A DNA stretch of 27,883 bases from a virus: positions 1 to 27,883 of IMG/VR virus record IMGVR_UViG_3300037502_001542, one strand, 5' to 3'. The position numbers and the translations under genes were made by a program. Positions 2,101-27,883 of this stretch are shown here, one piece after another. The notes beneath the pieces are model-generated. The model had not been told where the DNA came from and ran no database searches. It worked only from the letters and a program-made list of their open reading frames with translations. Position 1 is the stretch's first letter. Each line of letters begins with the position of its first letter.

Positions 2101-2119
2101 CGATATAAGTAGTTGTTAA
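2101..2119 (-). promoter_or_regulatory. Phage promoter-like element 1
   Basis: The minus strand reads TTAACAACTACTTATATCG. It begins immediately after the TAA of the 135-aa gene and lies about 15 nt before the start of the 669-aa gene. It shares a 15-nt core with elements at 7745-7762 and 24767-24784, but has ATCG where those have AGG. ACTAC in the element is mirrored by GTAGT downstream, as in the other copies. Confidence 0.6.
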
Positions 2120-5500: not shown

Positions 5501-6380
5501 TAACTACGTTTGCTAATATTTCTACATCAAATTCTGAAGTTGCATTTAATATTGAGCTTGCGATTTGTGCAGCATATTGATTGTTACTTGTTAATCCATT
5601 AACTTTTACTTCTATTAAAGTCTTACCGACAACTGCAGCATCTACAGGAGCACTATCCGATCCTGACAAATTAAACCATATAGCGTAATCAACAGTATTA
5701 CTACTTAATAGAATATAATGTGCATTGGTTATTGATCCAAAAGCACTTACTGTTATTGTAGATTTTTCGTATGTATATACTGTAGAACTAGTATTAGTTA
5801 GAACATATCTAGAACTAGGATAACCGTATAATAAGTTATTGTTAGCGTCTTTATATCCAAATAATACTCTATATGCTACTTTAGATTGTGGAGGTAAGAA
5901 ACCTGCTACATCAGGAACGATCTTAGCAGTTATATCAATAGCCTTGGGTACACCTGCATCCAGTATATACCCTGCGGCTGTTGAAAAGGAGGAGGAGCTT
6001 TGTGCGGATATCTTTTTGATTCCAGCACTGGTAGTGAAGTACATATTACCATTTGCTTCTTGAGATTTGATTCTTAATCCTGTCTCAAGTTCCATATAAG
6101 ATCCTGAGAAATCGGAGAAAGTACCAGATCCATTATCAAATTGTAATTTGTCATTAAAGTGTCTTATTAGACGATCTTTATATTCGAATATTTGTTTAAT
6201 TCTATCTGAGCTTAGAGGTAGAACGCTTCCGTAATCATTTAGTCCTCTGCGTTGAGTAATAACTCCACGTTCGTCTATATTGACATTTTCTGCAAGTTTT
6301 AAAGCACCATCACCAGCACTTAATTCATTGAGATAGGTTCTAAGACCTAATGCCTGTATTACGTTAGCTCTTTGAGACAT
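2535..6380 (-). CDS. Tail nozzle / tail tubular protein B-like (T7 gp12 type)
   Basis: This 1281-aa protein should form the tail nozzle through which DNA exits. The N-terminus has the family signature: an LNEL..GDGAL.LAENV.ID..GV...R.GL pattern at residues 17-46, then an EYKDRLI strand at 66-72. The C-terminal half carries the usual propeller-like segments: ALRDNLFVMKTDGVYILSG (818-836), LNNQIYALSTQGVV (861-874), SDRAYLLWLP (913-922), YRFNTFERTWTKW (934-946) and a VMLQERKNNDRTD motif (971-983). It is longer than T7 gp12 (about 800 aa). The excess is largely two copies of a beta domain at about 208-312 and 486-600, plus further beta inserts to about 760. The start ATG overlaps the stop of the adaptor-like gene by one base (TAATG), which indicates translational coupling. 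Confidence 0.88.
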   Translation of the reverse strand: MSQRANVIQALGLRTYLNELSAGDGALKLAENVNIDERGVITQRRGLNDYGSVLPLSSDRIKQIFEYKDRLIRHFNDKLQFDNGSGTFSDFSGSYMELETGLRIKSQEANGNMYFTTSAGIKKISAQSSSSFSTAAGYILDAGVPKAIDITAKIVPDVAGFLPPQSKVAYRVLFGYKDANNNLLYGYPSSRYVLTNTSSTVYTYEKSTITVSAFGSITNAHYILLSSNTVDYAIWFNLSGSDSAPVDAAVVGKTLIEVKVNGLTSNNQYAAQIASSILNATSEFDVEILANVVTITAKEGGDVTNISASIAGATIATTLNGNVAEGQNSNAEIDFAIPSGITTNFFYQVYRTQVTTLVEGLLISDLDPGDEMRLVYEEAVTDTDISNGYIIVEDITPETFRNNGANLYTNPISGEGILQANERPPIAKDVEIFRNALFYANTKSSHRLQTSLLGLSDFVSGSSKFILGNDDISREYTFVGTPEITEITCDSYANTLETNANNSYIKLASANDERKYTIYFDKGSAVDPELAGRLSIRVDLTDLTGATAAQIAQRLYDTLIEFEDFDLAILSNVVTVTNTNNGPSEDADTGTSSPSTDIGTGWALSITQGTGENAASYEVLLSGFASAAQAIEETARSLIYVINQDLQSPVIATYLSGENDLPGQILLENKSLEDKPFYIAVNDFAITQRFSPSLPNTETISDVEFSVGINSPAKITKAAHGLSTGASVFVSIPNTTPAIYGKYSITVVDANSFTIPQNITAEDSPATNSFYFVTSEVSDNLVSPNRVYFSKTNQPETVPLVNYVDIGPKDEPIQRIVALRDNLFVMKTDGVYILSGNSGQFSVRLLDNSTTVTAPDSAAVLNNQIYALSTQGVVTITETGVSIISRDIENLILDVANVKFDYKLTSFGATYESDRAYLLWLPTLKTDTVATQCYRFNTFERTWTKWTVGATCGIVATNDDKLYIGTHNRNVMLQERKNNDRTDFADRNFQLLIGANAVNGTEVRISNATELEIGDVIYQDQYITIAQYNRLLRKLDLDKGLDDDDYESTLKMNYGDNITTKLNQLNTKLVADDASGTVTSVSFSSTWSTLQDQFNTMIDQLNNIACDTLLKNYNNHEDIVPYEAIITTIDYTKNIITLNYTIPLIEGSVQIYKSIKSVIQWQPLHFGDPSGLKQIRESSIMFDQNNFYSGTLSFSSDLSQSLVAIPFLSKGVGYWGYGEFGDDNFYWGGDGNDAPFRTVVPLEKQRCRYLTIKFNHNNAREKWRILGVSAVVRAISSRAYR

Positions 6381-7336
6381 TAAAATATCCCTCTACGTCT
6401 TCTATATCGAAGAAGTGTGCTTGTTTCTTGTAAAGCAGAGTATCTAGGTTTAATTTTTTGAGGAGAACCTTCAACTCTGTCATCAATTAAATTATTTACA
6501 GAAGATTCCATTTGTTGTAACTTAGCTTTCGCATTTGCTAGACCTTCAGTATCACCCATTGCTTCTAGGATGTGTACTGCAGCTCTTTGTGCTAATAATG
6601 GATGCATTTCTGTAGGAACATTTGGAACAGGAGTTTGTTCACTAATGCAAAGATAATCTCCTACCATTAGTTCTTCAGGTATGTCGGTTGTATTAAAAGT
6701 AATAGTCTTAGTATTACTACTAACTGAAGTTGGAGTTTTATCAAACGCATGTATTTTATTTGGACTTCTATACGCAACGAAATCCATTTTATTTAAATTT
6801 GCAAAAGCTACAGGAAATGTATCTAAAGTAATAACTCCTGTACTTGTATTTATATTAGCAATTTTTGCAGTATACTTCTCTAATACCAAAGAGTTTGGTC
6901 TTAAATAGTAATACATTCTTAATTTCTCACCACTTAGTTGAGAGTCAACAAGTACTACATAATTGTTTTCTACATAAAAGACATTTCTGTCTGATGCTAA
7001 TAAACCATTCTTATAATCACTTAATTGATCTAAAGCAATTCTAGATAACTCATAGTGATTACCTTCTGAAGTAACAATAGCTAATTCTCTGAGCTTATTG
7101 CCTACAGCTCTATATGGAATAGGGTATTTAGATTTACCTGACTCAAATTCCAAATCCTCGTAATTCACGAGATATTCTTCATGTAGAGTCATTAAGGTAG
7201 AGAGAAGACCTGCGTCTATCTCTTCATTTAGAATCTCTAAGATGTCTTCGTCAGTGTAAACAGAGGTATCCGTTGGGATCATTGCCCTCTTGCGAACAGA
7301 TTCGACCAACTTAGAAGCGGTCAATATTCTGCTCAT
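6380..7336 (-). CDS. Head-tail adaptor-like protein (T7 gp11 / tail tubular A position)
   Basis: The 318-aa product begins with helices typical of podovirus adaptors: TASKLVESVRKRAMIP, then YTDEDILEILNEEIDAGLLS at about residues 27-46. A beta-rich middle follows, and then a helical C-terminal stretch (HPLLAQRAAVHILEAMGDTEGL near 245-266) with a coiled segment and a basic tail RYRRRRGIF. In T7-like tails this protein links the portal to the nozzle. It sits immediately upstream of the nozzle gene and overlaps it by one base, matching the T7 order gp11-gp12. The assignment rests on position and fold pattern; sequence identity to a named protein was not tested. Confidence 0.75.
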   Translation of the reverse strand: MSRILTASKLVESVRKRAMIPTDTSVYTDEDILEILNEEIDAGLLSTLMTLHEEYLVNYEDLEFESGKSKYPIPYRAVGNKLRELAIVTSEGNHYELSRIALDQLSDYKNGLLASDRNVFYVENNYVVLVDSQLSGEKLRMYYYLRPNSLVLEKYTAKIANINTSTGVITLDTFPVAFANLNKMDFVAYRSPNKIHAFDKTPTSVSSNTKTITFNTTDIPEELMVGDYLCISEQTPVPNVPTEMHPLLAQRAAVHILEAMGDTEGLANAKAKLQQMESSVNNLIDDRVEGSPQKIKPRYSALQETSTLLRYRRRRGIF

Positions 7337-7744: not shown

Positions 7745-7762
7745 CCTATAAGTAGTTGTTAA
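7745..7762 (-). promoter_or_regulatory. Phage promoter-like element 2
   Basis: The minus strand reads TTAACAACTACTTATAGG, identical over 18 nt to element 4 before the capsid gene. It lies between the terminator after the spike gene and the ATG of the 125-aa gene. AACTAC and the downstream GTAGTT form a perfect 6-bp inverted repeat around TTATAG. The 15-nt core ACAACTACTTATAGG matches the aligned T7 class III promoter core ACGACTCACTATAGG at 11 of 15 positions. Confidence 0.72.
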
Positions 7763-12515: not shown

Positions 12516-13372
12516 TAGACCCTCGTTCTTTCTACGTTTAAAATAATTCTTTTAGTAGAGTCTTGATATGTTACTAACATAGTCTGTACTAAATTCCCAT
12601 TTAATTTGTAGCTATATAATTCACTACTTTCACTTGGAAATGTTGTTTGTATTTCGTCCCAAATAACTGCAGTATCTAGTGTTTGGTTTTTCTCAAAAGA
12701 TCCTTTAAATATATCATAATAATAATTTTTTAATACCTGACCTTCAAATAAAGGATCAGAGCCTAAATACTTAATATCTACAGTTTTAACTAAGCTACTT
12801 GTACCCTGTTCATTAACTATTGTAAACCCTGAATTAAAATCTATCGAGTCTGTTGTCTCTCCAGTTTTATTTGCAGTTATTACAATTAATGCTCCACTTA
12901 CATTTGCAGTAAAATATTCTTTAAATTGATTAGAATTTAACATTAAACTTGTTGCTAAAGAAATTACTTGAGCATTATCGTTAGAATTTATACTGACCTT
13001 AATACCTGTTCCATCAGTAACTAAAGGATCAGCTCCTAAACCATCTACATCATACCAAACGTAGAATTTTTTAGAACTTCTTCCTTCATAGATTAAAAAA
13101 TATTTATTATTTAAACTTCCAGATATATCGGAAATAGTAGTGACTCTAGTTATTTGAGGTAATAAACCTACGTAATATTTTACTTGAGTAGGCAGATTTC
13201 CACTATAAGTAGCAGTTAAATAATCATAACTTTGCTTTACTATAGTAAGAGCATCTCTAGTTCTTAAGTAATGTCCAGGATACGAGTGCACATCTCTGAG
13301 CACCGCACCTGGATCTAATTGACTTAAACTTTCGATGTCTTCAATCCGATTATTATTCTTGTTCGATAACAT
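12515..13372 (-). CDS. Virion/tail structural protein, 285 aa, unknown
   Basis: The N-terminus (LDPGAVLRDVHSYPGHYLRT, then a helix) is unlike the rest. Residues about 75-185 hold a beta domain (KYFLIYEG...FYVWYDVDGLGADPLVTDGTGIKV...FTANVSGALIVITAN). The same pattern occurs twice in the nozzle protein, so it is probably a shared virion module. The C-terminus (YYYDIFKGSF...VIWDEIQTTFP...LVTYQDSTKRIILNVERTRV) is beta-rich. AGGA precedes the ATG. It lies between the free-standing endonuclease and the small fibre proteins. A structural role in the baseplate or fibre hub is inferred from composition and context. Confidence 0.78.
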   Translation of the reverse strand: MLSNKNNNRIEDIESLSQLDPGAVLRDVHSYPGHYLRTRDALTIVKQSYDYLTATYSGNLPTQVKYYVGLLPQITRVTTISDISGSLNNKYFLIYEGRSSKKFYVWYDVDGLGADPLVTDGTGIKVSINSNDNAQVISLATSLMLNSNQFKEYFTANVSGALIVITANKTGETTDSIDFNSGFTIVNEQGTSSLVKTVDIKYLGSDPLFEGQVLKNYYYDIFKGSFEKNQTLDTAVIWDEIQTTFPSESSELYSYKLNGNLVQTMLVTYQDSTKRIILNVERTRV

Positions 13373-13394: not shown

Positions 13395-14168
13395 TTATTC
13401 TAAATATTTCCAACGCTTACCCATACTAGTTGTTCCTTGTCGAGCAGCTTTGTGTATATTACCTTTACTATATTTTTGTTTTGCTTCAGAAACTGAGTTA
13501 AATACTTCTCCAGTTTCTATACACATTACTTTTTTAGCAGCAAAATGATCTCCACCAACTCCAGCATGTGTATTCCCTAAGTGGTTTAATCCTATTTTTT
13601 TCTTATGCTCGTCAGACAATTTTTTACCATAATTCGGACCTTTTCCGTAACTATGATGAGAACTTCCAACATATTTCCCTATTCTATTTAGTCTAGCTTG
13701 TTGTTTTTGTTCTTCGGTTAATGTTGACCAAAGATTAGAACCTTTTCTTATTTTTCTTAATCTTTGTCCATTTTCTAAAGCTACTTTTTTCATTTTTTCT
13801 CTAAACTCTTTGTTTTCCCAAAGTTTCTTAGTTCTTTCAGAACTTACTTTCCTACTTCTTTCAGTAGCTTTGCTTACCAATCCTCCAGAAGCAAGATTAT
13901 ATCCTACTTCTGGATTCGTAGAGTTAAAGAATTTAATTAACATAATCTCAGTATTATTTAAACTTTCTAAGTCAAAACAATATGCTAGTTCTTCGAATAT
14001 AAAATTATCAAACCCATATTTTCTTATAGCGTTATATAAATGAACATTTTTATATCTAGAAGATTTAGAAGAGGCTTTATGACCTCTTCTTCTTACTGCC
14101 AAAGTGTTGGTAGTTATCCCAATATAAATCTTTCCATTAATGGAGTTTGTAATCCTATATACTATCAT
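13395..14168 (-). CDS. Free-standing GIY-YIG homing endonuclease (NUMOD3 + NUMOD1)
   Basis: The 257-aa protein makes site-specific cuts in DNA. Residues 1-90 form the GIY-YIG nuclease: VYRITNSINGKIYIGITTNTLAVRRRGHK, then YNAIRKYGFDNF, and a Glu in LNNTEIMLIKFFNS, where the catalytic Glu of the family is expected. Residues about 110-200 contain NUMOD3-type DNA-binding repeats (LTEEQKQQARLNRIGKY; LSDEHKKKIGLNHLGN). Residues about 210-257 are a NUMOD1-type helix-turn-helix (KVMCIETGEVFNSVSEAKQKY...IHKAARQGTTSMGKRWKYL). I start it at 14168, one base after the fibre stop. The open frame continues upstream to 14426, but that part overlaps the fibre gene in another frame and is not family-like. No intron core surrounds it, so it is free-standing. 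Confidence 0.9.
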   Translation of the reverse strand: MIVYRITNSINGKIYIGITTNTLAVRRRGHKASSKSSRYKNVHLYNAIRKYGFDNFIFEELAYCFDLESLNNTEIMLIKFFNSTNPEVGYNLASGGLVSKATERSRKVSSERTKKLWENKEFREKMKKVALENGQRLRKIRKGSNLWSTLTEEQKQQARLNRIGKYVGSSHHSYGKGPNYGKKLSDEHKKKIGLNHLGNTHAGVGGDHFAAKKVMCIETGEVFNSVSEAKQKYSKGNIHKAARQGTTSMGKRWKYLE

Positions 14169-14169
14169 A

Positions 14170-15948
14170 CTATACCGAAGTAGTTCTTGCCCTGAAGCGA
14201 ATAGTCCCACTAACGAACCCTGGGTACGATTGTGAAATATACTGGATAGCCCCACTGTTAGTAATACTGAAAACAATTCCACTATCGTCGCCAACAGATT
14301 CTTGAGACATATCCCAAGACGCACCTTTTTGTATTCCATAAAGAGAATAAGTTTCGAATAAATCAGCAGTAGCATCGATTTCAACTGTAGCAAGTACTTC
14401 AAATCCTCTAACTGTAGCATTGGCAAAAGCTAATCCTGTTACGTTTGCAGGAATTGCTTGATTATTAGATAAAGAAAAACTTGTTTCAGCAATATCACCA
14501 GCAGAACCTGCACCAGCAAGATCTACGATAGATTGTACAGATACTCTCTTAAGAGCATTACTATCAGAAGCATCAGCAACAAGTACTTGATCTCCAAGAG
14601 CAGCACTTACTGAAGAAGCATTCATTGGATCTATTACTAAACTTCTAGAAGCAGTAATATTTCCACCGCCACTTAGACCTGAGTTAGCATTAGTGTTAAT
14701 GTTTACTGAAGAGTGGTCGATGTGTTCATTAGCAACAAAGTTTTGTAATGAATCGTGATCTACACCAGCAGGTAATACTGCAGCAGTAATAGAAGGAGTA
14801 CCATCATTATATGTAAAGTCAATTGAAGCAGAATCTACTAAAATAGTACCAACTGCATCTTGAGCTCTTTCATCTGTAAAAAATAATTTAGAAGAACCTT
14901 CTGTAATATCATCAGAATCATCTACTACTTTGTCGAATACATCAGATCCTATAGAGATTTGTAAATCTTCATTTCCGCCATCGTTTAATGTAGATATTGC
15001 AATTTTACCAGAAGCTCCAACTATTTTTTCTTCTAAATATCCAGCAGTAGTGTCGTTTGCAGATACTTTTACATTGTAAGTAGCTCCGCCTCCGCCTTCA
15101 AGACTCATTAATCTATTACCAACTTCATCTAAAGTAGCTTCGATAGAAGAACCATCAGCTACTGTCCAATCGGTTGGATCTGTTTGAGTATAATTAATAT
15201 CTCCAGCATCTAATACAACTACTCCAACTTTGCTATTAACAGAATTTACTTCACTTGGAGAAATTTCAGTGTAAACAGTTCCTGACCATCTATATGTTTT
15301 TCCAGTATCTATTGCAACATATATTTTACCAGTTTCACCACTTACTGGAAAAGCCGCTAAGTTTGCATATTCTAAAACATCATCAACATAACTAGGCAAC
15401 TGACTAGATGGAACTTTTCCTGCTTCATCTAATGATGCATATCCATTAGCTAGACCTTTTTCTGATGTACTTTGTTTTGTATCTAATTGAGACTTATTAA
15501 CTGCGTCTCCAGCATCAGTACCATTTGCTAGACTTGTTAATTTAAAAGAACCCATTGACTGATTTGCAGTAAAAGCAACTGATCCATCTTTTTTAATTAC
15601 TGCACTGTCTAATGCTCTTGTATCAATATCAGATTGTAACTCGTTTAATGCGGCTTGAACATCTGTAGCAGCTAGGTTACCAGCAGGTACATTTGAAATT
15701 GCAGAAGCATCATGAGCATCTGAACTATCGTTAATGTGATTACTTAAATCTGTTGAACTAGCTTTATCATTCAATTGTGTTTGAATTGAACTAGATACTC
15801 CAGATAAATAACCTAATTCAGTATCTGTTACTGAAGAAGATTGTAATTCCTTATTAGCATCTAAGTAAGGAACTCTACTTGCTGTTTCTGCTGAAAGTCT
15901 TAATCCACTTTCCGCAATTACTAGATCTTTAAACTTTTTGTTAGCCAT
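14170..15948 (-). CDS. Tail fibre protein, 592 aa
   Basis: The N-terminus (MANKKFKDLVIAESGLRLS) is followed by shaft motifs common in phage fibres: TELGYLSGVSSSIQTQL near residue 43, LAATDVQAALNELQSDI near 93, and FKLTSLANGTDAGDAVNKSQLD near 134. A middle domain with GKIYVAIDTGKTYRW follows at about 207-221. The C-terminal 100 residues form a beta domain with FSLSNNQAIPANVTGLAF, ending SGTIRFRARTTSV. The protein should be a long trimeric fibre. It has an AGGAG-type site before the ATG, 12 nt after the preceding small gene. A homing endonuclease gene follows its stop by one base. Receptor specificity cannot be inferred. Confidence 0.85.
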   Translation of the reverse strand: MANKKFKDLVIAESGLRLSAETASRVPYLDANKELQSSSVTDTELGYLSGVSSSIQTQLNDKASSTDLSNHINDSSDAHDASAISNVPAGNLAATDVQAALNELQSDIDTRALDSAVIKKDGSVAFTANQSMGSFKLTSLANGTDAGDAVNKSQLDTKQSTSEKGLANGYASLDEAGKVPSSQLPSYVDDVLEYANLAAFPVSGETGKIYVAIDTGKTYRWSGTVYTEISPSEVNSVNSKVGVVVLDAGDINYTQTDPTDWTVADGSSIEATLDEVGNRLMSLEGGGGATYNVKVSANDTTAGYLEEKIVGASGKIAISTLNDGGNEDLQISIGSDVFDKVVDDSDDITEGSSKLFFTDERAQDAVGTILVDSASIDFTYNDGTPSITAAVLPAGVDHDSLQNFVANEHIDHSSVNINTNANSGLSGGGNITASRSLVIDPMNASSVSAALGDQVLVADASDSNALKRVSVQSIVDLAGAGSAGDIAETSFSLSNNQAIPANVTGLAFANATVRGFEVLATVEIDATADLFETYSLYGIQKGASWDMSQESVGDDSGIVFSITNSGAIQYISQSYPGFVSGTIRFRARTTSV

Positions 15949-21529: not shown

Positions 21530-21552
21530 TTTCGTATCCTAATAAATTACTA

Positions 21553-21569
21553 CTAATAGTAGTTGTTAA
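21553..21569 (-). promoter_or_regulatory. Phage promoter-like element 3
   Basis: The minus strand reads TTAACAACTACTATTAG, then TAGT. It shares TTAACAACTACT with the other three copies but diverges where they have TATAG. ACTAC and GTAGT form an inverted repeat around TATTA. It sits between the capsid terminator and the 154-aa gene. Confidence 0.55.
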
Positions 21570-21635: not shown

Positions 21636-22709
21636 TTAGTCTTTGATGTATCTTAGGATAGTGATTGCAGATGGTCTAGTAGTGAAAAGAGCTTGATCTG
21701 AATAACATCTCATTTCATAACCATTAGCATTTTCAAGAAGCTTAAAGAACTCGCCTTCGTATCCTGGTGGATCAAAAGTTACGTCTGTAGAACCAATTCT
21801 TACTAGATCTTTTTCACTGAACGCATAAGCGTATCCAGCTTTGATGTAAGAAGAAGCTACAATTTTGATCATACCATTTTGGCTGTAGAACTTTAATACT
21901 TTAGAACCTTCTTCTAACTGAGCAGAAGAATAAGAACTATCAATAGATCTCTTAGAAGCTAAATCAGAAAGTAAGTTACTCCAGCTTCTATTAGAAACCA
22001 TAAGAGTAATTTCTTCTTCAGCAAGACCTTTGTCTAACATAGGAGCAATTGCTTTTTCAGCAGCTTCAAATGTAAGAACCGCAGGGTTAGCAGAATCAGC
22101 ACCAACATTGATAATGTTACCTTGGAATAAAGGCTCATTAGAGTTATTAATTCCAAAAAGTGATGATTTAGTTTCAGCAATAGCGTGTAATCCTAATTGC
22201 TCTTTGTATTCTGGAGTTACACCAGCTACAACAGCACCGTGGAAAAATACTCTGTCTGTAGCGATAACGCCAGCAGCAGTTAAGTCTGTGTCTGTTACTA
22301 ATCTTTTGTTTTCAATATCAACAGATACGATTTTAACTGTATCTCTTAAAGTAGAAAGAGTAGCATCAAAAATATCAATTTCGTGACCAGTAGTACCTAA
22401 CCAAATTCCTGCTGCCCATTCAGAATCTTCGACATTCAATTGAACATTTCCTGCACCAGAAACAGATTTAACAATAGCTAAACCTTTCTGACCGTACAAC
22501 ATAGAACACTCAAGTCTGTGGTTAATAGACTTAAGCATATTTCCAACTAATAATTTAGTTCCTCTTTCAAAAGCATTTTTAGAAGAAACTGCTCTAGAAG
22601 CTGCGCCAACTGAAATTGCAGATCTAAGAACCATTTCATAACCTTTGATAGAAGCGTTCTTCATAGGGAAAGAAACGATCTGGTTTAGTTCGAAAGCTTC
22701 GCCTTCTGA
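21636..22709 (-). CDS. Major capsid protein, exon 5 (residues 70-426)
   Basis: This exon holds 84% of the capsid protein. It begins SEGEAFELNQIVSFPMKNASIKGYEMVLRSAISVGAASRA. The continuation (LVGNMLKSINHRLECSMLYGQKGLA) is the long-helix region of the family. The C-terminal part includes PEYKEQLGLHAI, the P-domain-like segment around TFEAAEKAIAPMLDKGLAEEEI, and the ending YEMRCYSDQALFTTRPSAITILRYIKD. The TTG at 22712, which could be taken as a start, overlaps the last base of intron 4 and has no good ribosome site. The segment is therefore an exon, not an independent gene. Confidence 0.93.
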   Translation of the reverse strand, partial: SEGEAFELNQIVSFPMKNASIKGYEMVLRSAISVGAASRAVSSKNAFERGTKLLVGNMLKSINHRLECSMLYGQKGLAIVKSVSGAGNVQLNVEDSEWAAGIWLGTTGHEIDIFDATLSTLRDTVKIVSVDIENKRLVTDTDLTAAGVIATDRVFFHGAVVAGVTPEYKEQLGLHAIAETKSSLFGINNSNEPLFQGNIINVGADSANPAVLTFEAAEKAIAPMLDKGLAEEEITLMVSNRSWSNLLSDLASKRSIDSSYSSAQLEEGSKVLKFYSQNGMIKIVASSYIKAGYAYAFSEKDLVRIGSTDVTFDPPGYEGEFFKLLENANGYEMRCYSDQALFTTRPSAITILRYIKD

Positions 22710-24592
22710 CAAGCGTATTAACGTAAAGGCTTTTTATCCCTTACTTCTGGAGATTTCTCTCATTGGTTATCGACTAGTCAATTCTAGTCCAGTTTAGCAT
22801 ATCTTTCAATCCTTTCTTTTAATAGACTAGGATCTGGACACTCGTGGAGAAATTATATTCTGTTATACAGGTTCATTCTCTATGCGTTGCACGTGGCAGG
22901 ACTTTTTAATTTCATGCCTTCCGTTCTGATTACCTTGTCTTTTTTTGACTTAAGGTTTCCCAGATTTTTTGTCCAATTTTTACTTTAGTATCTCTACTAA
23001 AGGGGGCTAAGAAGATCTTTACCGCCGTAAGTTACCGTAATTGTTATCGTAAAAGCTTTTTATCTCTTACTTCTTATAGTTTCCTATAAGGTCAGCATAT
23101 ATTTTGTACTTTTTTTATAAGTACCCGAAGACTCGTGGAGGGATCTTAATCCTGCCCTCTATGCGTTACAGATGTACTAATCCTTCAGTATCACCCTCGG
23201 TATTAGCTTGTGAATCGTATTTAGCAGTATAACCATTTACAGTCTTTCTCTTATTTTTTAAAACTAGAGCTAGATTTTTGGGATTTACTCCATATCTGAT
23301 ACAAGATCTTAGGGTTTCTAACTTTATAATTTTTCCAGTTTTTATTTCTGTTAAAATTATAGGTTTTCCGCCTAATGTTCTAGATATCATCACTCTTTGT
23401 TCTTCAGTTATTAATCTATTCTTTAACTTAGGATTCGGTTTACCTGACTTAGATTTACTTATTTTATCTCGTATTTCTTTAGTCATGTCTGTAATACCGC
23501 CTCCGCCAATAGTTAGATTGTAACCATTTTTTAGAGTGTCTAGCTTCTCAATCCATTGCCTTTCTTTTTCAAAAAGTTCTTCTTTTGTATTAGCACTGTC
23601 TATAATACTAAACTCAAAAGAATCTCTTCCGTACTTCTTTAGGGCAGTTTGGAAATAAGATTTTTCTCTGTTGGCTTTATTTATATGAGCAAATATTCTT
23701 TCTTCTAAAGTCTTTGTTGTAATACCAACATAGGTTTTGTTAGAAATTTTATTTACCGCTTTATAAACTATACCGTACATACTATTCCGTTAGCTTTCAC
23801 CGATTTACTTCGGTTTTTTTAACAAGGAGGCATAACTTAATTATGTCTACCACCTTCTACATTTGTTACTCTTGTTTTACAAGGGAAAGACCTCTTCGGA
23901 TCTTTCTCTTCAGCTTATCTCTTTTATACTGAAGTTCAGACTATCGCATCTACTTTCGTAGTTTTCTCATTTAGTCGTTCAGCGTGCTTTCGCTTCGCCC
24001 TTGTTGTCCTTATTTTAGCAGAGAAGGATTTCCAAGTCAATTAGAGAAAATTTTAATTGGACTAGAATCTCGTTAATCCAATAATTACCGGTTCATTAAA
24101 ATTTAAACCTAATTGCTTATCGCCTTTAGCGAATTTAACAAGGTTCAAAAATTTGTTTACCGCTGGAACTAGATCTTTGATCTTGTCCCCATAAACTTCT
24201 TTCATATTTCAAATACTTAGTCTCTCGTATTTGTTTGGACTATATCATAAGACATATTAACCATTATGTCTCTCCTGAGCTCTCCTATTTCTAGGCGATC
24301 CTTCATGGCTTTTCCAGCCTTCGGACTTCAGTCTCTGAACCTTCAGAAGGGTTATTCTTTCCCTTAAGCTTGGCTGCTGATTGCCCAATTGTTTAGACAG
24401 GGGTTCCAGCAATTCACAGGATTTATAGTTTCGATTTATGCTCTTATTCCGGGGTTATTCGAGCCTGCTTCTTCAAGCCTTTCACATTGGCATCAAAACT
24501 AGAGGGGACGCACCTCAAAACTTCCAAAAAGTTTAAAAGTTTCCATTCAAGCTTGCTTGTGTGCTAGCTTTACTTGCGTCAATAGTTGCCAT
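21636..24592 (-). CDS. Major capsid protein gene, split into five exons by four group I introns
   Basis: Exons on the minus strand: 24592-24536, 24202-24076, 23859-23852, 23035-23021, 22709-21636. Joined, they give 1281 nt and a 426-aa protein. It starts MATIDASKASTQASLNGNF, continues KEVYGDKIKDLVPAVNKFLN and NEPVIIG, and crosses the intron cluster as G-LEG-VTYGG-SEGEAFELN. That region matches the 'PVxxGxExGVTYGG' pattern of this capsid type as I recall it. The gene lies after the scaffold, as in T7-like phages, and should encode the HK97-fold shell subunit. Each splice site is backed by P1 and P10 guide pairings, and the frame closes only with these joins. GGAG lies 7 nt before the ATG. Exact junctions are inferred; exon 3 could instead start at 23868, which adds three residues. 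Confidence 0.88.
22710..23020 (-). ncRNA. Group I intron 4 in the capsid gene (311 nt, no ORF)
   Basis: P1 joins exon end GGCGGU with GCCCCC (23007-23002), with the U-G pair at the splice site and one internal C-C mismatch. P10 joins CUUCUUA (23014-23008) to UCAGAAG at the start of exon 5, 6 of 7 pairs. An 8-bp hairpin (CTTTAGTA/TACTAAAG, GAGA loop) follows P1. P3 is UGGACA/UGUCCA. P7 is GCAUA (22885-22881) with UAUGC (22801-22797) in a typical S context, AAGATATGC. The GAGAA...TTCTC stem after R fits P7.1 of subgroup IA. The last base is G. Confidence 0.87.
22722..22748. repeat. 27-bp repeat, copy in intron 4 end
   Basis: It is identical at 25 of 27 positions to 23048-23074 and sits at the same distance (12 nt) from the splice site in both introns. 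It marks introns 3 and 4 as relatives. Confidence 0.85.
23021..23035 (-). other. Capsid exon 4, 15 nt
   Basis: The bases GTAACTTACGGCGGT encode VTYGG. The first seven bases pair with the P10 strand of intron 3 (7 of 7, one G-U), and the last six pair with the guide of intron 4. The same 15 nt therefore serve both splicing reactions. Confidence 0.82.
23048..23074. repeat. 27-bp repeat, copy in intron 3 end
   Basis: Partner of 22722-22748 (25 of 27 identical). It lies just before the 3' splice site, probably in the P9 region. Confidence 0.85.
23166..23780 (-). CDS. Intron-encoded GIY-YIG homing endonuclease
   Basis: The 204-aa enzyme should cut intron-less capsid alleles and drive spread of intron 3. 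Residues 1-95 form the GIY-YIG domain (GIVYKAVNKISNKTYVGITTKTLEERIFAHI; QTALKKYGRDSFEF; a Glu near 71 in ELFEKERQWIEKL; then NGYNLTIGGGG). Residues about 100-140 resemble NUMOD3 repeats (IRDKISKSKSGKPNPKLKNR; ITEEQRVMISRTLGGKP). The tail (IILTEIKTGKIIKLETLRSCIRYGV...NLALVLKNKRKTVNGYTAKY) resembles NUMOD1. It is complete with no damage visible. No strong ribosome site precedes the ATG. The stop TAA is part of the ribozyme's P7 region, so gene and ribozyme overlap. It is distinct from the endonuclease at 13395-14168. Confidence 0.92.
   Translation of the reverse strand: MYGIVYKAVNKISNKTYVGITTKTLEERIFAHINKANREKSYFQTALKKYGRDSFEFSIIDSANTKEELFEKERQWIEKLDTLKNGYNLTIGGGGITDMTKEIRDKISKSKSGKPNPKLKNRLITEEQRVMISRTLGGKPIILTEIKTGKIIKLETLRSCIRYGVNPKNLALVLKNKRKTVNGYTAKYDSQANTEGDTEGLVHL
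23852..23859 (-). other. Capsid exon 3, 8 nt micro-exon
   Basis: The bases TAGAAGGT complete the codon TTA with the final T of exon 2 and add GAA GGT (L-E-G). Five bases (UAGAA) pair perfectly with UUCUA beside the intron 2 guide (P10), and GAAGGU pairs with the intron 3 guide (P1). A 17-nt alternative starting at 23868 keeps the frame but has only two P10 pairs. Confidence 0.72.
23860..24075 (-). ncRNA. Group I intron 2 in the capsid gene (216 nt, no ORF)
   Basis: P1 is a perfect 7-bp AUUGGAU/GUCCAAU (guide 24062-24056) with U-G at the splice site. P10 is UUCUA/UAGAA. A full core can be read: P3 TTTTCTC/GAGAAAA, P4 CTTG/CAAG, P5 TCCTT/AAGGA, R GAACGACTAA (23980-23971), P8 CTAC-GAAA-GTAG, S GATAGTCTGAAC (23945-23934), P9 CTTCAG/CTGAAG. 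It is compact, without P7.1, and so of a different subgroup from introns 3 and 4. Confidence 0.88.
24076..24202 (-). other. Capsid exon 2, 127 nt
   Basis: It encodes KEVYGDKIKDLVPAVNKFLN and on to NEPVIIG, then one base of the next codon. The sequence is a clear capsid N-arm, but the frame runs into TAG eight codons past VII if not spliced. The start follows the ATG at 24205-24203, which belongs to intron 1. Confidence 0.88.
24203..24535 (-). ncRNA. Group I intron 1 in the capsid gene (333 nt, no ORF)
   Basis: P1 joins exon end GAAACUUU with GAAGUUUU (guide from 24524), 8 bp with U-G at the splice site. P10 joins CUUUUU to AAGAAG of exon 2 (6 pairs, one mismatch at the junction). The classic core strings are present: GGGCAATCAGCAGCCAAGC (24386-24368), R GTTCAGAGAC (24340-24331) and S GATATAGTCC (24246-24237). 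Extra hairpins between R and S (GGCT/AGCC, CCTA-GAAA-TAGG) fit an IA2-like P7.1/P7.2. Confidence 0.9.
24536..24592 (-). other. Capsid exon 1, 57 nt
   Basis: It encodes MATIDASKASTQASLNGNF from the ATG at 24592 with GGAG 7 nt upstream. Without splicing the frame ends at TAA immediately after Phe19, at 24535-24533, the first bases of intron 1. Confidence 0.85.
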
Positions 24593-24766
24593 AATTTATC
24601 TCCAATTTTTATATTTTTATGGTTTAAAAGCTTGGGTTAATATTTCAAGTACTTTTATATCTTCCTGCCAGAGGTATCAAGGAATCCTTTCGGGTATCCA
24701 AGAGCCAGAAAATAGCACTGCCGATAACGTACTTTACTCTAGGACTACGAAGCTTTAAGACGTAGT
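24593..24766 (-). promoter_or_regulatory. Long 5' leader of the capsid mRNA
   Basis: If transcription begins at the GG of promoter element 4, the capsid message has a leader of about 175 nt, much longer than in front of other genes here. It begins with a perfect 8-bp hairpin (GGACTACG/CGTAGTCC, 24742-24768) at the very 5' end. Further on are CCGAAAGG and repeated GATACC and CTGGC strings. No known riboswitch is recognised. The end carries the capsid ribosome site. Confidence 0.5.
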
Positions 24767-24784
24767 CCTATAAGTAGTTGTTAA
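24767..24784 (-). promoter_or_regulatory. Phage promoter-like element 4 (capsid promoter)
   Basis: The minus strand reads TTAACAACTACTTATAGG, identical to element 2. It lies immediately after the scaffold stop and upstream of the capsid leader. The terminal GG begins an 8-bp hairpin, as would suit a transcript starting there. Confidence 0.75.
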
Positions 24785-24786
24785 AA

Positions 24787-25791
24787 TTAGAACATTCTCA
24801 TAAAATCTTCAAGTTTTTGCTTCTTTTTGTTCTCTTCTTTAGGACTCTCATTGGTCGTTTTAGGAGCAACATTAGAAACATTATTAACTGCCTTAGCTTG
24901 TTTAGCAGCAGCTAATCTCTTCTTTCTAAGTTTATCTATAGTCTTTTGACCAATAAACTCTTCTAGAAAGTCTTCGGGTAAATTAGCCAATAAGTCATTG
25001 ATTTCTGTTCTAAGTTCCTTTCTAACTGTAGGAATTACGTCTTCAGGAGTAACATCTTCAAAACCATTGTCTATAGCCCAAAGCATTGTATCAGCTATTC
25101 TATTAATGATCTTAGGAGAAGCAGAGATGTCTTTATGTGCATCTAATGCCTTGATGATATTTTCTTCAAGATCATGTGCTACTTCTTCTTCAAACTTCTG
25201 TCTAGCTAATTCTTTCTCTTTTTCTTCTTTTTGTTGTATTTGCTTTCTTAGAGCTTCAACTTCTTGCATATACTTGATTTTTTCATTCTCAAGTCTTTCT
25301 CTTTCTTTTTGCTCAGGAGACTTTTGCATCTCTTCAATTCTTTGCTGTATTCTAAGTTCTGCAAGTTCGTCAGGATTTAACCCTAGCTCTTCTAGTACAG
25401 ACCAAGGATCTTGCTTAAGTCTTCCAATTTCATTAGCAAATAGTTTCTTTAATTCGCTACTTTCTGCCATAGCTTCTCTTCCTGCCATAGCTAATTGTAG
25501 TTCTCTTTTTAACGATTCTTTATCGTTCCAATCAACTTCTTTCTTAATAATTTTACCATTGACCTTGAGCTCTAGCACTTCACGAAGTTGTTTAAGTTCT
25601 TGCTTACTAGCACCTGCATCTTTAGCTTGCTTAATTACTTTGTCTGCTTGTGCTTGTGTAATTTCTTTTTGTGGAGCAGCTTCTGAAGATGCTTCTTGCC
25701 CTTCTTCAACTACTTCTTCTGTAGATTCTTCTACTTGTGGTGATTCAACTTGTGCTTCAACAGGAGCACTACCTGCGTTTTGTTCTGACAT
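24787..25791 (-). CDS. Capsid scaffolding protein
   Basis: The 334-aa protein should act as an internal scaffold during procapsid assembly and leave before DNA packaging. Residues 1-50 are acidic and disordered-looking (VEESTEEVVEEGQEASSE). A long charged coiled coil runs through residues about 125-215 (IQQRIEEMQKSPEQKERERLENEKIKYMQEVEALRKQIQQKEEKEKELARQKF). The C-terminus is basic (LRKKRLAAAKQAKA...KEENKKKQKLEDFMRMF), where scaffolds usually bind the coat protein. It has no membrane or signal segment. Its position between the portal group and the capsid gene is diagnostic. AAGGAG lies 5 nt before the ATG. Confidence 0.9.
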   Translation of the reverse strand: MSEQNAGSAPVEAQVESPQVEESTEEVVEEGQEASSEAAPQKEITQAQADKVIKQAKDAGASKQELKQLREVLELKVNGKIIKKEVDWNDKESLKRELQLAMAGREAMAESSELKKLFANEIGRLKQDPWSVLEELGLNPDELAELRIQQRIEEMQKSPEQKERERLENEKIKYMQEVEALRKQIQQKEEKEKELARQKFEEEVAHDLEENIIKALDAHKDISASPKIINRIADTMLWAIDNGFEDVTPEDVIPTVRKELRTEINDLLANLPEDFLEEFIGQKTIDKLRKKRLAAAKQAKAVNNVSNVAPKTTNESPKEENKKKQKLEDFMRMF

Positions 25792-26343: not shown

Positions 26344-27883
26344 TTATGCTCCTAATTGTTTAGACATTGCTGCCTGTGGAGTTTGTGGTAGTTCCTCGAA
26401 TGGAGCAGGTGGAGCTGCTGGAGCAGGTACTTGCATATTCTGAGTTAAATCCATTCCTGCTGCTTGAGGATTAGTCATAGGAGCAGAAGGAGCTTGTTCA
26501 GGTGTACCCATTTGTGGTTGTGCAGGCATAGGAGGAGCTAATGGTGGCAACTGTTGTTGAGCAGTTACTGCTAATAGTCCTGGATCTACATTTCTTAAAC
26601 TATCAATATGTTCTTGTATATGTGCTAATGTTCTACTTACTAAGTCAGCATCTTGTCTTAAAATAGGATCTGCAATTACTGCTTTATGTTCTCTAATATG
26701 TAAAGCATGATCGTCAGTCATTACTGATATAACAGGTTCACCTTTAAGTAATGCTTCATTTTCAGATTTAACAGTATCTAATTCATTCATCTCTCCTTCC
26801 ATAAGATAGTCAAGATTTCCTGTATTTAGTACCATTAAATACTTCTCAGGAGATTTAATTACTCCCATCTGTAAAAGATTCTCTGCGACCTGTGCTCTAC
26901 CTGCAGTACTACTCATAAGTGCGTTACCGACATCAACTACTACTCTTGAAATAGAATTAATATCTTCACTTTTAAACTCTTGCATTTTAGTAGTTTGACT
27001 AAGACCTGAGATAGCAATTACTCTAGGTACTTTAGCAAAGTCTTGAAGTAATTTAATAAGACCTGTACCTACGTCTTCTAGTAATTGTATGTATGATTGC
27101 TGTAGTCCTGAAATAAATTGTAGTGCTTGGGATTGAACTAAAGCTAAAGCGTTTCCTGATCTTAAAGAACTCTCAGGATTACCTCTTGCAACAGAGTTAA
27201 CTCCTGAAATAGTTTCCATAGTATTTTCTAGTTTTTGTAGAAAGTTAAATACTTCTGCAGGAGTACTAGTTAGATTAAGTGGTTTAGGATCTCCAGCTTG
27301 AGCATTATACTCAATGAAGTTTAAACCGCCCTGTAATTGATTTACTCTAATATCATTACCTCTAGGGTTAAGAATATTTTGCACACCAAAAGCATTCTGA
27401 TTTGTAAGAATTGTTGAATACAAACTATTTACTGCATCTTGCATTGGAAGTAAATCAAACATTGTGGTATATCCATAAGGAGTACCAATGACATCTGATG
27501 GAGCAATTCTATAAATAGGTAATTGTCTATAAGGCATTATTGTATCAACAAGAACACAGTCACTGTCGATATATAAAGTATAGTTGCCTTCAGGTAAAGA
27601 TTCAGTTCTTTTATGGAAAAACTCATATATAGGAATATCTACTGTCTCATCGTAAGGAGTAACAGTGGTACGTCTAGCACCTTCTGTATCTTTTGTAGGA
27701 GTAGCTAAGATCTTATCAGCAAACTCAGGATACTTTTTAGCTAGGTCATATTTATTAACAAAAGTTCTACATAAAACCCAATCATGAAGCTCAGGATTCT
27801 CTTTTGTACTGTCAAATACTACGTCTAATGGGGATAATACGTTAAATTCTACGTCTCCTTCATGTATCGGATATGGTTCTAAT
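26344..27883 (-). CDS. Portal protein, C-terminal 512 residues (N-terminus beyond window)
   Basis: The frame stays open to the right edge. The ATG at 27537 is internal, because residues upstream of it continue sensibly (FDSTKENPELHDWVLCRTFVNKYDLAKKYPEF; YEFFHKRTESLPEGNYTLYIDSD). The portal forms the dodecameric gate at one capsid vertex. Typical elements follow: RQLPIYRIAPSDVIGTPYGYTTMFDLLPMQDAVNSLYS (clip/stem approach), GVNSVARGNPESSLRSGNALALVQSQALQFISGLQ, and the helical HALHIREHKAVIADPILR...AHIQEHI segment. The last 80 residues are Pro/Ala/Gln-rich. It is followed by scaffold and capsid genes, as in other podoviruses. Confidence 0.92.
   Translation of the reverse strand, partial: LEPYPIHEGDVEFNVLSPLDVVFDSTKENPELHDWVLCRTFVNKYDLAKKYPEFADKILATPTKDTEGARRTTVTPYDETVDIPIYEFFHKRTESLPEGNYTLYIDSDCVLVDTIMPYRQLPIYRIAPSDVIGTPYGYTTMFDLLPMQDAVNSLYSTILTNQNAFGVQNILNPRGNDIRVNQLQGGLNFIEYNAQAGDPKPLNLTSTPAEVFNFLQKLENTMETISGVNSVARGNPESSLRSGNALALVQSQALQFISGLQQSYIQLLEDVGTGLIKLLQDFAKVPRVIAISGLSQTTKMQEFKSEDINSISRVVVDVGNALMSSTAGRAQVAENLLQMGVIKSPEKYLMVLNTGNLDYLMEGEMNELDTVKSENEALLKGEPVISVMTDDHALHIREHKAVIADPILRQDADLVSRTLAHIQEHIDSLRNVDPGLLAVTAQQQLPPLAPPMPAQPQMGTPEQAPSAPMTNPQAAGMDLTQNMQVPAPAAPPAPFEELPQTPQAAMSKQLGA

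Follow-up and report, generated by a model that had tools for sequence, protein, structure and literature searches.

The window analysed here (the whole stretch of 27,883 nucleotides, positions 1–27,883 of IMG/VR record IMGVR_UViG_3300037502_001542) is a 27.9 kb phage fragment, and early genes were accordingly inspected in its relatives. Its minus strand carries virion genes and, between them, copies of a short repeated motif, as follows:

2102–2119, minus strand: predicted late promoter, TATATC variant, before a 669-aa gene of the virion module (leader of about 18 nt)
6380–7336, minus strand: SU10-type adaptor gene (PF24175, E = 3e-7)
7745–7762, minus strand: predicted late promoter, exact motif copy, before a 125-aa gene and the SU10-like adaptor gene
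21552–21569, minus strand: predicted late promoter before the 154-aa gene next after the capsid gene (motif, and signal before the orthologues in 16/16 records)
21636–22712, minus strand: major capsid protein, last exon (phrog_14242, E = 1e-10)
24741–24769, minus strand: putative 5' hairpin AGGACTACG-N11-CGTAGTCCT in the capsid gene leader (inferred ATG at 24592), beginning exactly at motif position 16
24767–24784, minus strand: predicted late promoter ahead of the leader of the capsid gene (motif positions 18 to 1), with the start predicted at position 16 (24769)
24787–25791, minus strand: gene in the scaffold position, lying 5' of the capsid promoter (assigned by synteny and by blastp with G001/G003)
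26344–27882, minus strand: portal gene of the P22/SU10 type (PF16510, E = 1e-9), an open frame truncated by the contig end

The motif, TTAACAACTACTTATAGG, occurs in two exact copies (24767–24784 and 7745–7762) and in variants with two (2102–2119) and three (21552–21569) mismatches, all on the minus strand; the four lie between genes and point at virion genes encoded on the same strand. The first-pass annotation had reported the identical word before the capsid gene and a "neck operon" (the 125-aa gene and the SU10-like adaptor gene), had listed the two variants and had placed all four copies in gaps between genes, and we find each of these observations to be correct, the coordinates to within a base. 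At up to three mismatches, the window holds five matches against 0.09 expected, and no shuffle reached five. The fifth (13202–13219, three mismatches) falls within a 285-aa ORF; it is probably a chance match. Null models were shuffles, which leave some of the choices made during the analysis uncorrected, and gene starts were taken by a simple longest-ORF rule. The window combines a P22/SU10-type portal (PF16510) with an SU10-type adaptor (PF24175), as in virions of the SU10/phiEco32 type; its portal gave no tblastn match to phiEco32 itself. The capsid gene is split by group I introns (22712–24592, minus strand): a clear one at 24210–24507 (RF00028, E = 7e-15) was found by a local Rfam scan and missed by the scan of the whole window, and a weak one lies at 23921–24114 (E = 0.018). 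A GIY-YIG endonuclease ORF sits inside the interrupted gene (23166–23780), and another is found at 13395–14426.

Among 2.9 million viral contigs scanned, the exact 18-mer is present in only three others, which are relatives with the late gene order of the window; the motif is almost family-specific in this collection. A search with the portal profile recovered at least 80 loci of one phage family in IMG/VR, many of them on contigs of 79–85 kb; blastp matches of the window's virion proteins to two relatives, G001 and G003, are often at 30–45% identity. Fourteen long relatives (79–85 kb) were read whole, their completeness being judged from their similar lengths. In each of them the virion (late) module occupies one strand and the early module lies mainly on the opposite one, with genes for DNA polymerase A, DnaB, thymidylate synthase, ribonucleotide reductase and others. 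Several features of these early modules are recorded here in their own right. Ribonucleotide reductase genes are seemingly split by a LAGLIDADG intein (L122:13941–16748 and L146:586–3309, both plus strand; genomes G023 and G035), and a stand-alone PHB_acc_N (PhaR) DNA-binding domain of 80 aa (L013:15440–15682, plus strand; PF07879, E = 2e-12) has orthologues in seven genomes. A C-terminal tail like SxLLxELF/Y is the only feature that many of the small early ORFs (up to 90 aa) have in common; it is carried by 31/82 in G005 (0.2 expected), 13/53 in G033 and 7/52 in G001 and by none in several relatives (sites in the early modules of G005, L102–L106; G033, L152–L156; G001, L011–L015; and G036); the tail resembles a short binding motif used repeatedly within a lineage-specific gene expansion.

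A blind search for over-represented intergenic words, followed by inspection of the sites, showed that the signal extends across the family as a core, AACAA-N5-NNTAG, in which the other letters are lineage-specific. The version TTAACAACTACTTATAGR is shared by the window, G001, G002 and G003; others are TTAACAAATATATGTAGA (G005), TTTAACAACTTAATGTAGAG (G015), TTAACAAGTTACAATAGGA (G020), TTAACAAATAATTATAGAA (G023), TTAACAAGTATATATAGAG (G035) and AACACCCTTATATTACAGRG (G025 and G036), and the list is not exhaustive, as G007, G028 and G030 carry the signal too. It stands before the same late genes in 14/14 long relatives, whose virion proteins are often only 30–45% identical. By gene, it precedes the one next after the capsid gene in every one of the 16 records, the pre-adaptor gene in 11/12, the scaffold gene in 14/16 and the portal gene in 13/16, some of the scaffold and portal matches being to the core word only; an invariant TTAACAAATATA is found before the capsid gene in 12 further relatives. 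Since the bare core word also precedes 27–42% of early genes, the argument rests on the aligned architecture and not on the count alone. Intergenic sites of the signal number 110 on the late strand and 16 on the early strand. From its conservation before orthologous late genes and its near-confinement to the late strand, we conclude on sequence grounds that the repeats serve as late promoters in a family of phages of about 79–85 kb with a P22/SU10-type portal and an SU10-type adaptor.

The arrangement of the signal suggests where transcription would begin. The late promoters of G015 have a TACACA box at a constant position (7.9 bits; the highest null value among 500 shuffles was 3.6). With a start at motif position 16, this box would span −35 to −30, where a sigma factor has its −35 element, and the promoter would fit the geometry of the sigma70 family (a −35 and a −10 element separated by about 17 bp, start 6–7 nt after the −10). 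No −35-type box was found in the window clade or in any other lineage tested besides G015. At six sites, spread over five genomes, the following gene (in one case that of a GIY-YIG endonuclease) has its ATG exactly at position 16, and these genes would be leaderless if transcripts started there; six such starts are a small sample, and the TAG context of the promoter itself favours TATG. We infer that transcription starts within the downstream TAG, at its A or its G (position 16), which would place AACAACT at about −13 to −7, where a −10 element would be. The distance from TAG to AACAA is variable within G015 and longer in G025/G036. Reading TATAG as a sigma70 −10 element was considered and rejected, because the start would then fall downstream of Shine–Dalgarno sites and inside the genes with ATG at position 16.

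The leaders themselves agree with this placement. The capsid leader hairpin of the window folds at −13.2 kcal/mol (z −3.4), and the capsid leaders of L026, L029, L032, L034, L038–L040, L042, L043 and L045–L047, together with the scaffold leaders of G001 and G015, form a bulged hairpin with GCAAGC and GCCC (spacer N; N3–7 in the detailed set) and a covarying outer stem. In this set, 16 cells are changed on both sides, a value reached by 0/500 shuffles; no Rfam family was matched at the gathering threshold by the hairpin of the relatives. The hairpins support, but do not prove, that transcripts begin near the end of the motif. The conserved hairpin may control transcription or serve as a virion-protein operator.

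Early and late genes appear to use different signals. Sigma70-type promoters are enriched in the gaps of the early strand (54/326, about 11 in shuffles) and not in those of the late strand (9/199, about 5 in shuffles), a division into sigma70-type early and other late specificity that is also the scheme of phiEco32-type phages. Phages phiEco32 and 7-11 use the host sigma70 for early genes and another specificity for late ones (PMC8948821, PMC4331800). Three portal relatives, L162–L164 (contigs of 73–88 kb), are binned in Bacteroidota MAGs, at odds with the sigma70-type early promoters and the Shine–Dalgarno sites; a Bacteroidota host, suggested by these three bins, was not adopted because TAnnTTTG promoters are not enriched and Shine–Dalgarno sites are common.

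The explanation that we favour, at somewhat better than even odds, is that the late promoters are read by the host core polymerase carrying a phage-made late specificity factor of the sigma type, the arrangement used by phiEco32 and 7-11. The host sigma70-type holoenzyme would transcribe the early genes, which lie on the opposite strand; later, a phage-made sigma-type factor would give the host core a new specificity, and the redirected polymerase would open the DNA at AACAACT and initiate within the downstream TAG, at its A or G. The resulting virion mRNAs would have short Shine–Dalgarno leaders, hairpin leaders in the case of scaffold and capsid, or, in some relatives, no leader. That the motif drifts along with the phage lineages argues for a factor made by the phage. 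Against this reading, no sigma factor is recognizable in the window clade, the −35 box of the sigma-type geometry is found in one lineage only, and the six leaderless-looking starts are few. In 19 relatives, the phiEco32-type sigma (phrog_1740) gave no convincing match and the T4 gp55-type sigma (phrog_234) none, with the phiEco32, crAss and T4 controls detected; the sigma profiles PF04542 and TIGR02937 gave no or very weak matches in the relatives, G028 excepted, and a small home-made sigma profile matched nothing in the window clade. G028, the only relative with a sigma-like protein, encodes an ECF-like protein of 158 aa (TIGR02937, E = 3e-6), for which a single-sequence structural model, too weak to judge, gave no fold match. 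A weak match of phiEco32 gp36, G001_54439 (E = 0.015), was rejected because it resembles a lipoprotein and the other genomes yielded no counterpart. G025, G033 and G036, which carry a CCTTATA version of the motif, share a helix-turn-helix protein of 73–79 aa resembling sigma region 4, a link that may be only phylogenetic.

The failure to find a phage sigma is also what would be expected if the host core worked with an alternative sigma factor of the host, brought in by a phage activator, and the constancy of the AACAA core across lineages with little sharing of early genes would be explained by a host factor that different hosts have in common. The lineage-specific drift of the motif (AACAACTA, AACAAATA, AACAAGTA and AACACCCTTATA) speaks against it, and we know of no bacterial alternative sigma that recognizes AACAA at −10; we regard this explanation as unlikely, though it is the strongest competitor. 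The negative sigma searches would also suit a phage-encoded factor outside both the sigma and the T7-type polymerase classes, such as a remodeller. Of the early genes with no assigned function, those for a conserved coiled-coil/zinc-ribbon protein (13/14 genomes) and an "NNARN" protein of 150–180 aa (11/14) rank with the most widespread, and on that distribution they are candidates for the role. Zinc ribbons are common, however, and the predicted structure of the NNARN family is of low confidence (pTM 0.35) with no fold match. We consider a factor of this third kind rather improbable. That the repeats are elements other than promoters (processing, packaging or replication signals) preceding late genes by happenstance draws on the fact that their promoter role is read from sequence, but we give it next to no credence, given their bias to one strand, their place just 5' of Shine–Dalgarno sites and start codons, the hairpins that begin at the end of the motif and the conservation before orthologous genes.

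The first-pass annotation had taken the repeats for promoters of a phage single-subunit RNA polymerase of the T7 type. In the window clade the signal is indeed a contiguous 18-nt word with no −35 box, which T7-type promoters also lack, and it ends in TATAGG with short leaders downstream. The match claimed to the T7 class III promoter, 11 of 15 positions, is arithmetically correct, yet the window holds four matches of this quality, the best of them an unrelated sequence, and 12 Markov-shuffled windows hold 2–9; since shuffled windows give as many, the resemblance carries no weight. The upstream part of the motif agrees with four phage promoters at only 2–7 of 13 positions and departs from the −17 to +6 consensus of the T7/T3/SP6/K11 type. 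The predicted polymerase was sought in the relatives by profile, by motif pattern and by ORF size, and none was found. PF00940 is absent from all 36 relatives, 14 of them 79–85 kb long (the window itself being a fragment), with the T7 control detected at E = 1e-110. The largest early ORFs looked up encode a DNA polymerase, a helicase, ribonucleotide reductase (some with intein) and a HATPase protein. Two ORFs carry both the T7 B- and C-motif patterns, namely the DNA polymerase A homologue and an ORF of only 478 aa; the large unannotated late proteins (1,077–1,786 aa) matched no family and lack the combination of both patterns. A very distant virion polymerase among the late proteins is still just conceivable, but its expected targets would be the early genes and not the late ones. 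The −35 box of G015, a TAG spacing looser than a rigid T7-type promoter would have, and a start at the G of TATAG, which would strip the A from the ATG at position 16, are likewise at variance with a T7-type polymerase. Thus, what stands of the earlier proposal is a minus-strand promoter family with a phage-specific late specificity, conserved and nearly confined to the late strand; the likeness to T7, being at chance level, does not. That the repeats are T7-type promoters is not supported, and a single-subunit polymerase is, in our estimate, quite improbable as their reader.

Four known promoter systems come closest to the signal. In phiEco32, the middle and late promoters read by the sigma factor gp36 have the consensus tAATGTAtA, with the start 6–8 bp downstream (PMC8948821). 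As in phiEco32, the late genes of the window clade lie on one strand and are preceded by a single contiguous element that lacks a −35 box, and the early strand has host sigma70 promoters; the virion parts (SU10-type adaptor, P22/SU10-type portal) are related. It differs in the consensus, which is TTAACAACTA..TAG (in full, TTAACAACTACtTaTAG) and not tAATGTAtA, and in that no phrog_1740 sigma gene was found; the two families are only distantly related. The late promoters read by gp47, the sigma of phage 7-11, are bipartite, GTAAtg-(16)-aCTA (PMC8948821), as are those of G015 with TACACA at −35 to −30, but the boxes are others, the window clade has no upstream box and the sigma gene was not found in the relatives. 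With the T7 class III promoter, TAATACGACTCACTATAGGGAGA, the signal has in common the TATAGG end, the contiguous element and a hairpin leader on the capsid mRNA, while the upstream half is unrelated beyond chance, no T7-type polymerase was found in the 36 relatives and related promoters carry a −35 box. With the late promoters of T4 (TATAAATA, read with gp55), it shares the use of a single short −10-type element for all late genes, but the sequence is different and no gp55 homologue (phrog_234) was found in the 19 relatives.

These results carry a caution: in AT-rich DNA, a sequence ending in TATAGG is no evidence for a T7-type polymerase. They define a late transcription signal for a phage family represented by at least 80 loci in IMG/VR. 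Tentatively, and with less than even odds, this widespread, uncultured family of phages of about 80 kb may turn the RNA polymerase of its host to late promoters of the AACAA type by a specificity factor outside every described sigma or phage polymerase family, with the −35 box gained or lost within the family. The motif offers a simple reporter sequence for fishing out the missing transcription factor, and the lineages with and those without a −35 box form a natural series in which a change in the architecture of what would be sigma-type promoters can be followed.
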